Source: a virus. Taken from it: DNA of 34,367 nt. The notes under the pieces are model-generated. The model worked only from the letters and a program-made list of their open reading frames with translations. It was not told the DNA's origin and searched no databases. Shown piece after piece: positions 19,101 through 30,118 of this stretch. Every line of letters starts with the position of its first letter. The first letter of the stretch is position 1. The translations under genes and the position numbers were made by a program. Location: positions 1 to 34,367 of the IMG/VR virus record IMGVR_UViG_3300006919_000196; one strand, written 5' to 3'.

Positions 19101-19548
19101 CCGCGAGTCCTTTTTCCAAAGGCGAATATAAAAGGTTTCCAGGAGAATCGCCCGGATTGCCTGCCACCCGTCTTGTGATGCCTGCCGCTCCCGGTGTTCC
19201 ATCAAGAAACCCAAAAGCCAATCGATTCATCGTTTCTTCAGGCGTATTCGTGGAAGGTCTAAGGACTCCGACATCTTCCAGTTTTTCTTCAATGAATGCA
19301 GAGCCCAGAAAAGGCTTTTGCATGGATTTTCGGAATGTTGGAATTCCTAGAAGATTAGATGCCGATTTAGGAAGGAGGCTTTCTGCACCCTGCGCCAGAT
19401 AATCCAGCCCAAGAGCAGCAACATCGACCACGCCGCCAGGAATATCAGCAAGAATTCCACGCAGCGCACCCTGCTGTCTTTTATAATAGGGATCGTTTCG
19501 TAATTCAGGTTCGCGATCTTCGTCTATTAGGCCGGAAAGCTGACTCAT
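16105..19548 (-). CDS. Large polyvalent virion protein with EIQSDW module (putative ejected protein)
   Basis: 1147 residues. A Gly/Ala-rich hydrophobic segment (about 27-70) may touch membranes. The first part of a recurrent module lies at about 405-450 (LTHQRYSFRTLPNGERAMLV, then EEIQSDWNKAGVTKGF). Its second half is at about 1010-1050 (PEWINLAAKRLVQVATENDA, RIMFVGAQGQTKRWDGL), split by about 550 acidic residues. In other phages 'VEEIQSDWHQ...KRLLxxAxExGxDxIxWTxGxQQ' is found in polyvalent proteins carried in the head. The C-terminus is hydrophobic (LPYLAIPLAGAAAQ). Position after the portal fits an ejected protein; activity unknown. Confidence 0.6.
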   Translation of the reverse strand: MSQLSGLIDEDREPELRNDPYYKRQQGALRGILADIPGGVVDVAALGLDYLAQGAESLLPKSASNLLGIPTFRKSMQKPFLGSAFIEEKLEDVGVLRPSTNTPEETMNRLAFGFLDGTPGAAGITRRVAGNPGDSPGNLLYSPLEKGLADLPDKSPRTPGAWKNVLSKIKGREMPFIGVDDYLNALPQNEKIGIEDLEGFMRQNRLEIIERQKYLPNVAFPDELGEQIASEAKMGAYYETLPEELADWMRDNVEIDVDPYMMTTKSGAGVVFRVGDNDIGYDHSPSDMKEFAQDIDELAKTNPLPKMGPEMGPYTGADVVDLVADYTGPYVNKQVKEIAESYKTPHWAEKPGQFRYRGKTEIGEDQIPDETYRDMILYMPEKGKLSFVTGKDERVEYDPNFQGPGSHYPEKNILTHQRYSFRTLPNGERAMLVEEIQSDWNKAGVTKGFRLYPDETAEFKQILEDEGLVFVPAGGQMKGPDGSTGYYATREELDRFEREMDMEGEFQTADQMETQASNVSFFGEFADENRAITNALDDIYNIEMDVDPQTGRLIFSAFDAENNQRFLLYDEANDHDQINSYLEPFEYNPAQLASAENDIRNAIQRLQTNYQVQKAGVADTFEMYGIEPVVDFEGTFRIFGPGQEEVEFTESSIRNGELELLFDQFGEGEDTEMMISNVQEAVRKYNSAFDAPASQEPLQPISRFYEYLPEDYTIIQKDNGEYTIRFPGGQTDTMSWQNEDDAIAQAIDMGAEDDAQVNTLYETLAADIVDMHESNPEEIDQIFGQGAYSKIIELADRSPLVETNQLVNFSESPAVIGFDGAGSPNRILGWEHQGRTATQDVIKNMKADDELTNMHLRALEVLGIRPSGSMTTGLGGTFPDFEAIGSGEPTPGGGSITFNFSELMDAGSIRRRQLLEELVPIVRSNMTTDLPSEEIEVPLLQILNDLQQRNYKYGPEYIIRNAAGYQSQKIPEVRKKFVEPIKAVDPGQMSKGAQKAAKAFARQGTTPKGPFVSDPNNPEWINLAAKRLVQVATENDADRIMFVGAQGQTKRWDGLDYDKADFIYDKKFTSYLQKLENQFGEGNKVELGKIEFPSMDEFNRETRIVENFPNIKLSEKLKKTAREGLPYLAIPLAGAAAQRERNGLISE

Positions 19549-21632
19549 TTTTCAAGCAAACCCTGGTTCTTTACGAGTGTTTTCTGTTGTTCAATAATTC
19601 CGCGTATTGCCTGGACATCGGTCGCTGTCTGATATTTGGCCTGCATATCGGCCATCTTCAGATTCGCATCCAATTCCATTTCGGATTGTTTCAAGACTGC
19701 ATCAGTCTGATGTTTATCACGCTGAATGGTAAGTTTTGCTTCTTCGACTGCCATCTGCGCCCTGATCTGTTCCATCTGAACCTGGGCCAGCAATTCTTCA
19801 GGTGATGGCTTTTCAGGTGGAGGTTCAGGCGGCGGAACAGTTGCGGGATCCGTAAAGAATTGGGTGCTGTCTCTAAATCCTGCATATTCCGAAATCTTGA
19901 CGAGCGTATTGTAATACTGTCGAAGATTGACAAGTGGATTCTGCATTCCTGCAATCTGAAGGATCTGTTCCTGCGATTGCTTGATCTGCATCAATGCAGC
20001 CAGTTTTGCTTCTTCATCATTCTGCCCAAGACCCACATTGACAGCGACATCCATGCCTTTATCCCAGGTTCGCGGGTCCATTGGTAAAAACTGATTTCTC
20101 AGTCTGATAATTCGTTCTTTTGGCTGATGTTCGCAAACCAGCTTTAGGATGTGAGAAAACATGGGTTTCATCAGCTGTTCGCTGAAAATTCTTGCAATCA
20201 ACTCACATTTCAAGGCTGCCGCTGATATAGTCGCCTGGACGCCGGCACGTGTTGAACTTTGCAGGCTTTCCGGGTCCAAACCTTGCGCTGATTTGGAAAT
20301 GCCGGTTCTGGTATCCTTCAGCCCGTCATAATATTCCAATACGGGGAACGCAGCCTGTCCCACGAAGGGAACCTGCAACGGTTGGATGGCATTGGGCTGC
20401 CGCATTCTTATAAGGCTCCCGACTGCATCACTATCCATTAGGTCTTCCACATTCACGGCGTTTTCTAGGAATGCCATTCGCGGATGGACGCTTAATGCAA
20501 GGGAGTCCAACAAGGATCGCTGGATGCTGGATTTTACTTCTTGTATGTCCTTGACAAGATCATGGAATCCTAATCCTGTCCAGTCATGCGGCTCAGGATC
20601 ACAGGTTGCGCTGAAGATTGGACAACGGGCAACAGGTTCATTCAATAATACTTTTTCGTGCTGGGCCCCCACCATCAGGATGTGACGCAATTCAGCGATG
20701 CCGTCCCCATCGTAATCGATGCGAACCCAGCATTCCGTTACATGAACCTTCCTTTGGCTTTGATGTGCGTGGACTTCTTCGCTGTCCACCATTTCAGGCT
20801 TTCGTACCGTGTATTCTTCATTGAATTGCAGGGCATCATCATTTCCGCCCAACATGTCTTCAAATTCTTCCAGATCATAACCTAATGCGATGAGCTCGCT
20901 TGACGTCATCATCCTTCGATGACCCACCAGATTCGCGCTGTATAGATCCGTGGCGCTCCTAGAAAGAAAGACCTCTTCTGGCGGCAAGCATTCAATGCGT
21001 ATGCGACCCTTGTCCGTCCTGCGTTGAATGACAGCATCATGCATTGCAGGCATCATCATGCCGTTGTCTTCTTCCTGGCGCGTTTCCAATGAAACCAGGC
21101 TCAGCTCAGGATCACCGAGCATCACCCCTAGTTCATTATCATCCAGGTTTTCATACGTGTAAGTTTCAACTTCTATTTCATCCGACCAATATGCCTTCAT
21201 GAATCCATCACGGCGTATCAGCATATCCTTCAGGCATGAGTGCAGGAGCATGAATCCATTATTATCCTGCGAAAAGATGTAACGGACATAATCTGTAGCC
21301 TGATCCGCATACATAACGTCTTCCGGTCCTTTCGGAACGAATTCAACGACGCGCTCGGATGAATGGAATATTTTCAATAAGGAAGGAAGAACGGCCTGCA
21401 CAGCATCGCGCAGATCCATTGAAACATACTGTGAACGGCCTTCAACTTCATTTCCTAGTTTCTGGCCTTGATAAAATTTCGTTGCTTCGGATCTTTCAGG
21501 CGAAACGAAGTCTTCTATGTAGTCAATAGCATCTTCAACCTGCGCTTTAACGAACGCATGAAACTCATCATCATCCATGCTTTCGCTTTCAGGGCCGGCC
21601 GAAAGCTGATCAATATCTTCTAAGAATTCCAT
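19545..21632 (-). CDS. Portal protein (P22/SU10-like)
   Basis: 695 residues of the P22-type portal family. Visible features: VSPERSEATKFYQGQKLGNE, SQYVSMDLRDAVQAVLPSLL, KDMLIRRDGFMKAYW, VTECWVRIDYDGDGIAELRH, FSATCDPEPHDWTGLGFHDL and the stem helix IQEVKSSIQRSLLDSLA. The C-terminal 120 residues form a charged coiled coil after a Pro run, a barrel-like extension. The start at 21632 lacks a recognisable ribosome site. It heads the leftward structural block and is divergent from the rightward cassette. Confidence 0.9.
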   Translation of the reverse strand: MEFLEDIDQLSAGPESESMDDDEFHAFVKAQVEDAIDYIEDFVSPERSEATKFYQGQKLGNEVEGRSQYVSMDLRDAVQAVLPSLLKIFHSSERVVEFVPKGPEDVMYADQATDYVRYIFSQDNNGFMLLHSCLKDMLIRRDGFMKAYWSDEIEVETYTYENLDDNELGVMLGDPELSLVSLETRQEEDNGMMMPAMHDAVIQRRTDKGRIRIECLPPEEVFLSRSATDLYSANLVGHRRMMTSSELIALGYDLEEFEDMLGGNDDALQFNEEYTVRKPEMVDSEEVHAHQSQRKVHVTECWVRIDYDGDGIAELRHILMVGAQHEKVLLNEPVARCPIFSATCDPEPHDWTGLGFHDLVKDIQEVKSSIQRSLLDSLALSVHPRMAFLENAVNVEDLMDSDAVGSLIRMRQPNAIQPLQVPFVGQAAFPVLEYYDGLKDTRTGISKSAQGLDPESLQSSTRAGVQATISAAALKCELIARIFSEQLMKPMFSHILKLVCEHQPKERIIRLRNQFLPMDPRTWDKGMDVAVNVGLGQNDEEAKLAALMQIKQSQEQILQIAGMQNPLVNLRQYYNTLVKISEYAGFRDSTQFFTDPATVPPPEPPPEKPSPEELLAQVQMEQIRAQMAVEEAKLTIQRDKHQTDAVLKQSEMELDANLKMADMQAKYQTATDVQAIRGIIEQQKTLVKNQGLLEK

Positions 21633-27500: not shown

Positions 27501-27748
27501 TTTAAGGGTCCTTCTGGTATTGGCATTTCCTGAGTGCCATCAGGCGCGAACATGACAAGCACTTCGGTTTCATCTTCATTCAGTAATTGTGATGCTTCTG
27601 TTTCGTAATCCATGATCATCACCGTATCAATCAGCTTACCGTCACATTTGTCATTGATATGCCGGTCATGCCTTACCTGACGATCATCTGGTGAAATCCG
27701 ATGGCAGACTTCACACAGAAGAGTTTTCTGTTTTATTGCGAGCGGCAT
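27497..27748 (-). CDS. Small protein with Cys/His cluster
   Basis: 83 residues: TLLCEVCHRISPDDRQVRHD, RHINDKCDGKLIDTV, then an acidic beta-rich end (NEDETEVLVMFAPDG). CxxCH and a later HxxxxxC could bind zinc. It overlaps the end of the terminase-small-like gene by 38 bases. No known family. Confidence 0.5.
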   Translation of the reverse strand: MPLAIKQKTLLCEVCHRISPDDRQVRHDRHINDKCDGKLIDTVMIMDYETEASQLLNEDETEVLVMFAPDGTQEMPIPEGPLN

Positions 27749-28154
27749 TGATCCTTCTTAATTCTTCTAAATGTTCTGCCGTAAGATCACGCGTTTCCAC
27801 GTGCATGATTTGATGTTCACTGTACTTTGCCGGGTTCTTAACCTTTGCCAACCACCGATAATGCTCCAATACAATCTTCGCCTTATTCGGATTGATGTCT
27901 GTTTCATCATCAGGAAGAAGTCTTGTTAGTAGATCCTGGCTTTTTTCTACTATTGCGTCGGCGCCTTCCTTTATTGCCTGCTGTGTCCTTACCTTCAGAT
28001 CCTTGCTGTACAGTCGTTTCTTTAGTTCCTTGTATGGTATTGACAATGCTTTTGATACCGTCTGGACTGTTGCTCCTGTCGCCAGGCCGTCCAGGACGCT
28101 TTGAACGCCTTCTTCGGTATATAAGACCTCCTGAATTTCCTTTTGTTTTTGCAC
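27711..28154 (-). CDS. terS: Terminase small subunit-like protein
   Basis: The readable domain runs from about 28140 to 27711: TEEGVQSVLDGLATGATVQT, VSKALSIPYKELKKRLYSKD, QAIKEGADAIVEKSQDLLTR, VLEHYRWLAKVKNPAKYSEH. An HTH followed by 'A...AD.......' helices and 'R..LA..KNP.KY' is the Sf6-type small terminase pattern. A GTG at 28154 gives 147 residues, close to the family size, but its ribosome site is poor. The same frame is open further upstream (to 28427), where it looks non-coding. It may instead be fused by frameshift to the overlapping gene upstream. Confidence 0.65.
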   Translation of the reverse strand: MQKQKEIQEVLYTEEGVQSVLDGLATGATVQTVSKALSIPYKELKKRLYSKDLKVRTQQAIKEGADAIVEKSQDLLTRLLPDDETDINPNKAKIVLEHYRWLAKVKNPAKYSEHQIMHVETRDLTAEHLEELRRINAARNKTENSSV

Positions 28155-28431
28155 CTTTCTTGATCCCCGGCGCTGCCTTGTCAAAGTCTGGAATCCGTGA
28201 TCCTTTGTAATCGATGCATCTGAAGATGTTGATGTCTGTTTTTCTGACGATGGTGACGCACCAAAAGACAAATTGATCTTCATATTCGATTGGCTCTGGC
28301 AGGTGCTTTTCAATAAGATCCTTGCCTTCTTTCGCTTGTTCTTCACTTCCGCAGTAGAAAATTCCTGAAATGTTGGCTTGAACGGTATCGCGGAAGAAAT
28401 CTCTGAGTTCCTGCTTGAATTCTTCATTCAC
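27910..28431 (-). CDS. Unknown protein; only N-terminal part looks coding (frame break into terS)
   Basis: It starts with GTG at 28431, overlapping the small membrane gene by eight bases. Residues about 1-95 look like a folded protein: EEFKQELRDFFRDTVQANIS, GIFYCGSEEQAKEGKDLIEK, YEDQFVFWCVTIVRKTD. After about residue 100 the frame becomes a run of Arg, Gly, Ser and Lys (YRRRRSKRPGRPGDRSN). This looks like the shadow of the terminase-small domain one frame over. Either the protein has a long basic tail or the two halves were or are joined by a +1 shift near 28120-28170. Confidence 0.5.
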   Translation of the reverse strand: MNEEFKQELRDFFRDTVQANISGIFYCGSEEQAKEGKDLIEKHLPEPIEYEDQFVFWCVTIVRKTDINIFRCIDYKGSRIPDFDKAAPGIKKGAKTKGNSGGLIYRRRRSKRPGRPGDRSNSPDGIKSIVNTIQGTKETTVQQGSEGKDTAGNKGRRRRNSRKKPGSTNKTSS

Positions 28432-28572: not shown

Positions 28573-28902
28573 TCACAATTCAGGCGAAATCAGTTTCGAA
28601 TTGAATGACTTGCCTTCCTTCGTGACAAGGATGAAACGAAACCAGGGAAAACGGGTTGCAGCGACTTTCAACTTCACGTTCGCATCGTCACGCATCCATC
28701 CTTTCGTTTCGTGGAATTCCATGTGTTCTTCCGTGATCACAAAGAAATCCGGTGTATAAAAGGTTTTATTCGCGAGCCTTAACTTCATTCCTTCATACCT
28801 GAAATCCTGAATGACTCCTGTCCGTTTAAGGAACGCCAGATGTTGCCCATAGGCAGTTTCCAGTTTATTCGCCCCTTCGAAATCTCTGATAATTGGCTTC
28901 AA
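28573..28902 (-). CDS. PD-(D/E)XK nuclease, DUF1064-like
   Basis: 109 residues starting with TTG at 28902 inside the end of the methyltransferase gene. It reads NKLETAYGQHLAFLKRTG, RLANKTFYTPDFFVI, MEFHETKGWMRDDANVKLKV, and PWFRFILVTKEGK. Asp52 of YTPDF with Glu65 and Lys67 of HETKG form the nuclease signature, and the arrangement is that of DUF1064 (PF06356). A phage Holliday-junction or recombination nuclease is a reasonable guess. It sits in the replication-modification block. Confidence 0.75.
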   Translation of the reverse strand: MKPIIRDFEGANKLETAYGQHLAFLKRTGVIQDFRYEGMKLRLANKTFYTPDFFVITEEHMEFHETKGWMRDDANVKLKVAATRFPWFRFILVTKEGKSFNSKLISPEL

Positions 28903-30118
28903 GTTCTTTAATCCGCATTAATGGGATACAAGCAACAGCAGGCACGATGGAATTACCGAGCGCTTTGAGCTTGTGGTTCCGTTCTTCTTCATTTACTGTC
29001 ACTCTCGGGATACTAGGTTCTTCTTCCCAGAAACGCGCAAAAGCCAATCTAAGGGATAACCCATCAACCACGTCACCCAGGCCGGAGAAAGTTGGGCTTT
29101 CTTCCCGCTTTTCTTGTGTTCTTCGTTGATCGCGAAATCTACGTTTAAGCTGGCTCCGATTTTTGCTCCAGATGGTCTGGTTTCTCCGCGTTCCTTCCGA
29201 TCCGCTGATGTCGGGTCCAATGGGAACTCCCCCAGCAATGCCGTTGGTGTCGCATAACTCCGGGCTACGGCCTGCGTCAATGGAAAATGCAGATTGATTC
29301 CTTGCTTCGCTTTCTCTTCGTGCCGTTTCTGCCATTTCTCCGGGGGTTCGATAGATGTATCGGCTGCGCAAGGTGTTGGCCAATTCCTTTCCATCTTCTG
29401 GACCGCATTCGGAAGGTTCTGCCCGTCGAATCCTAGACCCTTGTGATCCCTCGCCATGGGAGTCGGCCATCTGTCCTGTTCCTGAATCGCCACCCATCTG
29501 TCCAGAGTCATTTGCATTTTGCCCTGCCTTGTCATTTCCAATGAATGTTCGCCTTTTCCCGCTTGGGAGGCAGTCGGAGTCGGCACAGACGATCCAGATT
29601 CGTTTACGCAGATGAGGTGCTCCCAATTCTTGCGCGGATACAACTCGCCATTCCGCATCATACCCGATGAGGGAAAGCTCTCCAAAAACGGTTCTGGCCC
29701 AATTTCCTCCATCCCCGGTAACGAGGCCTGCGACGTTTTCCATGAGTAGGTATCTGGGTCGAATTTCGCTTGCCAATCGAATGATTTCGCTGAACAAAGA
29801 AGACCTCGATCCCGTGATGCCTGCACGCTTGCCGGCGGATGAGAGATCCTGACATGGAAACCCTCCCGTGATGATGTTGATGTTTCTGCATCCATCCCTG
29901 GCAAGTTGATCTGCTGTGAGTTTTGTAACATCGTCATAAATTGGAATGTCGCCTACATTCTGCTTAATGATTGGGTGAACCCATTTTTCAATATCGCAAG
30001 CGGCGACGGTTTTAAATTGAATTTCTTTTTCATAATTTCTGATGATCTGCATCGCCAAGGCAAAGCCTGCAATGCCGGTAAATAGATCAAGATGATTTAA
30101 GACAGTTTTTTGGATCAT
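28865..30118 (-). CDS. C5 cytosine DNA methyltransferase
   Basis: 417 residues with the ordered C5-MTase motifs: DLFTGIAGF (11-19, SAM binding), GGFPCQDLSSAG (85-96, catalytic Cys89), LLMENVAGL (124-132), QELGAPHLRKRIWIV (163-177) and LKALGNSIVPAVA (384-396). The target-recognition part (about 185-340) has three to four ADSxGxG-like repeats (MADSHGEGSQG, LANTLRSR, CDTNGIAGG). It probably methylates phage DNA against host restriction. A 312-codon frame on the same strand, one base over, lies wholly inside it and reads as a second conserved protein. Confidence 0.9.
   Translation of the reverse strand: MIQKTVLNHLDLFTGIAGFALAMQIIRNYEKEIQFKTVAACDIEKWVHPIIKQNVGDIPIYDDVTKLTADQLARDGCRNINIITGGFPCQDLSSAGKRAGITGSRSSLFSEIIRLASEIRPRYLLMENVAGLVTGDGGNWARTVFGELSLIGYDAEWRVVSAQELGAPHLRKRIWIVCADSDCLPSGKRRTFIGNDKAGQNANDSGQMGGDSGTGQMADSHGEGSQGSRIRRAEPSECGPEDGKELANTLRSRYIYRTPGEMAETARRESEARNQSAFSIDAGRSPELCDTNGIAGGVPIGPDISGSEGTRRNQTIWSKNRSQLKRRFRDQRRTQEKREESPTFSGLGDVVDGLSLRLAFARFWEEEPSIPRVTVNEEERNHKLKALGNSIVPAVACIPLMRIKELEANYQRFRRGE
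28999..29937 (-). CDS. Overprinted second protein nested in the methyltransferase gene (WPTP/WLMG family)
   Basis: 312 codons, same strand, one base out of frame with the methyltransferase. It carries the motifs of a widespread phage family found near C5 methyltransferases: FDPDTYSWKTSQ (59-70), FPSSGMMRNGELY (88-100), VPTPTAS (118-124), WPTPMARDHKG (157-167), WPTPCAAD (186-193), YATPTA (228-233) and LSPAWVTWLMGYPLDW (283-298). The bases that give SGMMRNGEL give GYDAEWR in the methyltransferase, and those that give WPTPMARD give MADSHGE. A translation start at 29937 is plausible but no clear ribosome site is seen. Role unknown, perhaps modification-linked. Confidence 0.55.
   Translation of the reverse strand: MTMLQNSQQINLPGMDAETSTSSREGFHVRISHPPASVQASRDRGLLCSAKSFDWQAKFDPDTYSWKTSQASLPGMEEIGPEPFLESFPSSGMMRNGELYPRKNWEHLICVNESGSSVPTPTASQAGKGEHSLEMTRQGKMQMTLDRWVAIQEQDRWPTPMARDHKGLGFDGQNLPNAVQKMERNWPTPCAADTSIEPPEKWQKRHEEKAKQGINLHFPLTQAVARSYATPTALLGEFPLDPTSADRKERGETRPSGAKIGASLNVDFAINEEHKKSGKKAQLSPAWVTWLMGYPLDWLLRVSGKKNLVSRE

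Follow-up and report, generated by a model that had tools for sequence, protein, structure and literature searches.

A +1 frame nested in a viral C5-cytosine methyltransferase gene is predicted to encode the TRD and motif IX subunit of a two-subunit enzyme

How can one stretch of viral DNA carry two conserved protein families on the same strand, and what would the second contribute to the first? The question is posed by a locus in the window (the whole stretch of DNA analysed, 34,367 nucleotides of an IMG/VR virus record), where a minus-strand ORF at 28865-30118 encodes a C5-cytosine DNA methyltransferase of 417 aa with motifs I-VIII and X (referred to hereafter as alpha). Entirely within it, also on the minus strand, lies an ORF of 312 codons with an ATG start (28999-29937, referred to hereafter as beta); the ORF coordinates place the beta start 181 nt past that of alpha, i.e., in the +1 frame. 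An earlier note, made from the letters of this DNA alone, had drawn attention to such a frame inside the methyltransferase, giving the right coordinates, and the peptides it quoted are all present in the two translations. Alpha matches Pfam DNA_methylase PF00145 (4.1e-41), TIGR00675 (2.7e-36) and phrog_363 (4.6e-54); beta matches phrog_1008 (E 1.6e-26, residues 21-299 against profile positions 39-279 of 329), with no domain recognised in a Pfam search. These matches agree with the note's observation of family signatures at the same bases, in that the PTP motifs of beta map directly onto methyltransferase peptides: VPTPTASQA (beta) and CADSDCLPS (alpha) share 29560-29586, WPTPMARDH and MADSHGEGS share 29443-29469, WPTPCAADT and LANTLRSRY share 29356-29382, and YATPTALLG and LCDTNGIAG share 29230-29256. 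The ADS/LANT/CDT repeats of alpha are hence the PTP repeats of beta out of step by one base, and the overlap geometry is such that alpha codon position 3 is beta position 2, and alpha position 1 is beta position 3.

One account of this arrangement is that the beta frame is untranslated: conservation of the methyltransferase, together with codon bias, would generate the likeness to phrog_1008 as a by-product, and phrog_1008 would itself be an annotation artefact. Alpha-preserving shuffles, in which synonymous codons were permuted within alpha with its amino acids and codon usage retained (100 shuffles, the +1 frame of each scored against a beta profile built from other loci alone), bear on this account from both sides. 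The conservation of alpha motifs does force some beta likeness (shuffles retain ~44 bits over the whole frame and ~67 bits over the N-terminal conserved part of the window beta), and for this reason raw beta profile matches taken alone would mislead. The observed scores are nevertheless well above these levels: the window beta scores 168.8 bits versus 44.6±9.1 in shuffles (maximum 67.6), placing it 13.7 s.d. above, and for the whole nested frame the real sequence exceeds all 100 shuffles at 80/80 test loci. The window beta core contains no stops, compared to a mean of 4.8 and a minimum of 2 per shuffle. The N-terminal part, facing alpha motifs IV-VIII, gives 114.7 bits in the window when tested alone versus 67.1±9.0, and this part lies above all shuffles in 72/85 loci. 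Control methyltransferases that have no beta (E. coli dcm, and those of a Klebsiella phage and a Staphylococcus phage) score no higher than their own shuffles, with two single-chain Streptococcus phage methyltransferases (L257 1204-2337 and L260 1150-2232) slightly high, in the N-terminal part only (~2.5 s.d. above shuffles). Both of the latter genes have an open +1 frame of 142-160 codons across motifs IV-VIII that weakly resembles the beta N-terminal part.

Substitution patterns inform on which frame is constrained at which point of the locus. Using differences pooled over 19 close pairs (some loci shared between pairs, phylogeny not corrected for), alpha positions 1/2/3 differ at fractions of.082/.048/.279 before the overlap, as in ordinary alpha coding, and of.095/.050/.196 over motifs IV-VIII within the overlap, where alpha-synonymous changes are reduced. 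In the TRD zone (motif VIII to the beta end) the same fractions are.307/.141/.123, and past the beta stop.148/.118/.247. The fastest codon position in the TRD zone thus flips to the third position of beta, identifying beta as the constrained frame there, and the beta protein is conserved at places where the alpha protein is not; both observations oppose the by-product account. Changes in this zone that are nonsynonymous in alpha and synonymous in beta occur at.114, matching the.105 at which synonymous changes arise in alpha's own region, such that the alpha frame drifts at the neutral rate and is merely kept open.

That openness is itself improbable by chance, since just 5% of shuffles that preserve beta leave alpha free of stops through the TRD zone (154 loci, picked as nested; nested loci are 156 of 168 overall); in the window, 0/100 beta-preserving shuffles of the alpha bridge are open, with 6.2 stops expected. 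We take a frame that is open over a drifting stretch to be one that is read through in order to reach motif X, its content being irrelevant to alpha. The locus is best described as a coding relay, in which motifs I-VIII and X belong to frame 0, and the nested frame is the constrained one between VIII and X. Shuffle scores, position flip, N-terminal part and open-frame tests together led us to reject the by-product account, which we consider barely credible.

The earlier note had left two readings side by side, a real dual-coding gene or a nested family arising as an annotation by-product. The former is borne out by the shuffle tests, the substitution patterns and the layout of relatives gathered by reverse sampling from the alpha alignment alone, where beta lies in +1 at 80/80 loci (several contigs being common to the beta-sampled set); the latter is contradicted by the shuffle scores and the codon-position flip. 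The same 80 relatives, and the strong constraint on the nested frame, differ from what the note had named as telling against dual coding, i.e., homologues with nested-frame stops and no extra constraint. Its further suggestion, of a link between the two families through frame-shifted reading, holds in part: the alpha ADS repeats are WPTP repeats read one base off, and the alpha frame is unconstrained there.

Which parts of an enzyme does each frame supply? In alpha, motifs I, IV (PCQ), VI (ENV), VIII (QxRxR-like) and X (GN) are present in order, and the aligned motifs are invariant. Motif IV (GGFPCQDLS, residues 85-93, containing the catalytic Cys) falls within the overlap at 29840-29866 (minus), with P88 and C89 invariant in 70 homologues, and motif X (RNHKLKALGNSIVP, residues 380-393, with G388, N389 and V392 invariant) is found directly past the beta stop at 28940-28981 (minus). 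Between them, residues ~190-376 (28991-29551, minus) constitute the unconstrained bridge, the stretch of frame-0 read-through that displays the position flip. An AlphaFold model of alpha (70 homologues) reaches pLDDT ~90 over residues 1-190 and about 390-417 and leaves the bridge disordered (pLDDT mostly 34-60); the folded part has M.HhaI (2uyc) as its best PDB match (E 7.6e-16, rmsd 1.9 over 180 columns). The stretch in which a single chain would carry TRD and motif IX, between motifs VIII and X, is therefore unconstrained and disordered in alpha. Given the absence of a constrained TRD from alpha, and the presence of a motif IX equivalent in beta, alpha by itself falls short of a complete classical enzyme.

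Beta has an N-terminal conserved part (FDPDTYSWKTSQ ... GMMRNGELYPR, 29635-29769, minus), encoded opposite alpha motifs VI-VIII. Four PTP modules follow on the minus strand: VPTPTASQ... (39 aa, 29470-29586), WPTPMARD... (29 aa, 29383-29469), WPTPCAADTSIEPPEKWQKRHEEKAKQGINLHF... (42 aa, 29257-29382; a similar module comes first in loci L006-L008) and YATPTALLG... (59 aa, 29080-29256). After the array comes WVTWLMGYPLDW (29044-29079, minus; M292 and G293 invariant in 87 sequences), the putative equivalent of C5-methyltransferase motif IX. This segment is the most conserved of beta (LNPxWVEWLMGxPxGWT; the window form includes WLMGYP), and its likely identity is suggested by relatives in which it has changed frame. 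In L117 the beta-type segment sits in the alpha chain, directly preceding motif X, and can be aligned in register, at a weak score, with motifs IX-X of M.HhaI (RECARVMGYPDSY...GNSVV and LHPRECARVMGYPDSY...YKQFGNSVV); assignment of the WLMGYP segment to motif IX draws on this weak in-register alignment and on the single chains of L005 and L117.

Across the family, the region between N-terminal part and motif IX usually holds two to four modules that start with WPTPxAxD and end L..AV (range 0-6 by simple pattern count), with a median module length of 39 aa (475 modules); TRDs of the multispecific Bacillus phage methyltransferases are ~40 aa long. Modules are shuffled, 1667 of 2429 similar cross-locus module pairs occupying different ordinal positions, and the difference between L007 and L008 is exactly one whole 117-nt module. 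Modelled alone, beta gives a poor AlphaFold prediction (pLDDT 61, pTM 0.32), which might be expected if beta folds on its partner, and there was no PDB match by sequence or by a fold search with this poor model as query.

The surrounding family is both broad and uniform in layout. A tblastn search with beta returned phage-genome matches mostly within genes annotated as DNA methyltransferase, and scanning with the beta alignment brought in 80 loci from viral contigs and 80 from genomes, with numerous bacterial phyla and a small number of archaeal bins represented. Both parts are recognisable in 168 loci, with beta fully nested in +1 at 156; the other 12 comprise 10 with beta in +1 but outrunning alpha, one fusion (L005) and one odd layout (L145). 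No standalone beta was seen among the loci examined (L039 is a contig edge, L145 the odd layout), and in the complete loci beta always overlaps alpha in +1 or is fused into it, which gives no support to the earlier note's view of the nested family as separate phage proteins near methyltransferases. Both genes are already listed in some records; in Paenibacillus phage Leyra, beta is listed as its own gene (LEYRA_62) located inside LEYRA_61, and in many actinophages two adjacent or overlapping "DNA methylase" genes are listed. Among individual members, Microcystis phage Mel-JY01 (L266 1-2219) has an S-adenosylmethionine synthase gene shortly upstream of the pair; in Gordonia phage Hans (L263 537-2793) a LAGLIDADG endonuclease interrupts the alpha region, with beta parts across several ORFs; and an E. 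coli chromosomal copy (L171 1500-2261) adjoins an integrase and is annotated as a pseudogene with an internal stop. A phi3T-hybrid locus gave no nested-family match.

Layout variants reveal how the parts of the two frames relate. In eight loci (L002, L019, L045, L078, L087, L092, L107, L139) alpha stops after motif VIII and beta continues through TRD, IX and X; in L117 and L152 motif IX has shifted into the alpha frame; and L005 is a single chain with motifs I-VIII, PTP modules, IX and X. The short-alpha forms, the L005 fusion and the L117 alignment lead us to view the nested frame as the TRD and motif IX half of the enzyme. Beta could instead be a genuine overprinted protein that acts apart from the methyltransferase (in anti-restriction, or as a regulator), a possibility to which the lack of a PDB fold match and of a recognised Pfam domain would lend themselves. 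This we judge highly improbable: neither a constrained TRD nor motif IX is present in alpha, the motif IX equivalent is in beta (with motif X too in variants), and the single-chain and frame-swapped forms unite the same parts in one enzyme.

The short-alpha loci and the known single-chain fusion also invite a reading in which a programmed +1 frameshift fuses the alpha part with motifs I-VIII to the TRD/IX region of beta, yielding one long methyltransferase and no second subunit; in several phages motif X lies in the beta frame, alpha having ended shortly past motif VIII, such that the frameshift product would be a complete enzyme. We regard this as quite improbable, because the beta frame is conserved upstream, opposite motifs VI-VIII, in a region that a junction frameshift would leave untranslated, and because alpha is open to a frame-0 motif X in the 156 nested loci, needlessly so under frameshifting. 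We favor translation of beta from its own internal start. Strong Shine-Dalgarno sequences precede beta in some loci (L006, L149, L169); no clear one was found ahead of the window's beta ATG at 29937 (the first in frame), and family-wide enrichment is absent (SD>=5 at 7% of beta-frame starts versus 10% in a control frame).

Computation thus establishes that both frames are conserved and constrained, that the I-VIII / TRD-IX / X order is split over two frames, and that modules are shuffled. From these features the locus very probably encodes a two-subunit C5-cytosine methyltransferase from one DNA stretch, with beta the TRD and motif IX subunit. Alpha would provide the catalytic, AdoMet-binding large domain (motifs I-VIII, the long unconstrained bridge and motif X), and beta the predicted DNA-recognising small domain (N-terminal part, tandem PTP modules as TRDs, motif IX); beta would bind alpha, the two associating into one active enzyme. 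The predicted enzyme may methylate the phage's own DNA and so evade host restriction. We think it rather likely that the PTP modules confer several specificities, about one sequence per module, in which case, by analogy, the four modules of the window could correspond to several methylated sequences.

Two-polypeptide C5-methyltransferases are an established precedent (M.EcoHK31I, M.AquI), and M.EaeI, like M.EcoHK31I, is of this kind. Lee et al. are said to have reported in 1995 (NAR 23:103) that the M.EcoHK31I small subunit is encoded within the gene of the large subunit in another frame. In M.EcoHK31I (YGGCCR) the larger polypeptide has motifs I-VIII and X and the smaller has motif IX, with the predicted TRD placed in the larger subunit (PMC3404938). 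The window pair is alike in that alpha holds I-VIII and X and beta IX (a likeness of described motif division), but its selection map and structure put the TRD in beta, and beta has several TRD-like modules. In M.AquI (CYCGRG), also a split enzyme, motifs IX-X are on the small subunit along with the distal variable region (PMC3404938). This subunit division is shared by L019, L045, L087, L092 and L107, whereas the window alpha retains motif X and the bridge, and its subunits overlap over hundreds of bases. C5-methyltransferases of Bacillus phages (SPR, phi3T, rho11, H2) carry tandem TRDs that give several specificities (PMC8936443, PMC12707154). The modules of the window family resemble these in arrangement and length (tandem, shuffled, median 39 aa), a likeness by analogy, but the Bacillus phage enzymes are single-chain and the window's array is in a separate overprinted subunit. 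The phrog_1008 profile ("DNA methyltransferase") fits beta, but its label is silent on the overlap with a second methyltransferase gene.

We found no literature account of such overlap as a general phenomenon, in a search made mostly without subscription papers, so that this absence means little; as far as the literature searched extends, what is new is the overlap's breadth, a selection map that locates the TRD in the beta frame, and the shuffling of TRD modules. Long overlaps between genes of one strand are considered rare in prokaryotes. Here, an overlap of about 165-280 codons is found in almost all members of a common clade of methyltransferases (phages, bacteria, archaeal bins), where annotation often shows just one gene. 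On balance we lean towards a large, ancient phage/bacterial clade that is obligately dual-coded, with a swappable multi-TRD beta and a functionless, obligatorily open alpha bridge, in which gain, loss and shuffling of ~117-nt modules changes the methylated set with neither frame disturbed. The locus offers a natural system in which the contribution of each frame is measurable, and calls for annotation correction, many such "DNA methyltransferases" being listed without their recognition half. Specificity, possibly several per enzyme, is predicted to be read from the hidden beta gene; recoding alpha for cloning alone would destroy beta, which could make expression or methylome studies of these enzymes fail.

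A search for close relatives of the window gave distant ones only, and methyltransferase peptide patterns gave none. Next to alpha, a small minus-strand gene at 28573-28902 resembles phage Holliday junction resolvase/endonuclease families (phrog_190, 3e-15), its TTG start overlapping the alpha end. A second same-strand overlap in different frames occurs at 27711-28427 (238 aa, terminase-small-like) and 27910-28431 (173 aa), both minus; each ORF is protein-like in a different half, so these are probably two adjacent genes with frames running on. An SU10-type portal protein is encoded at 19545-21632 (minus; Pfam SU10_portal, 1e-189), which, together with RecT, exonuclease VIII-like and DnaD-like genes, suggests a podovirus-like phage.
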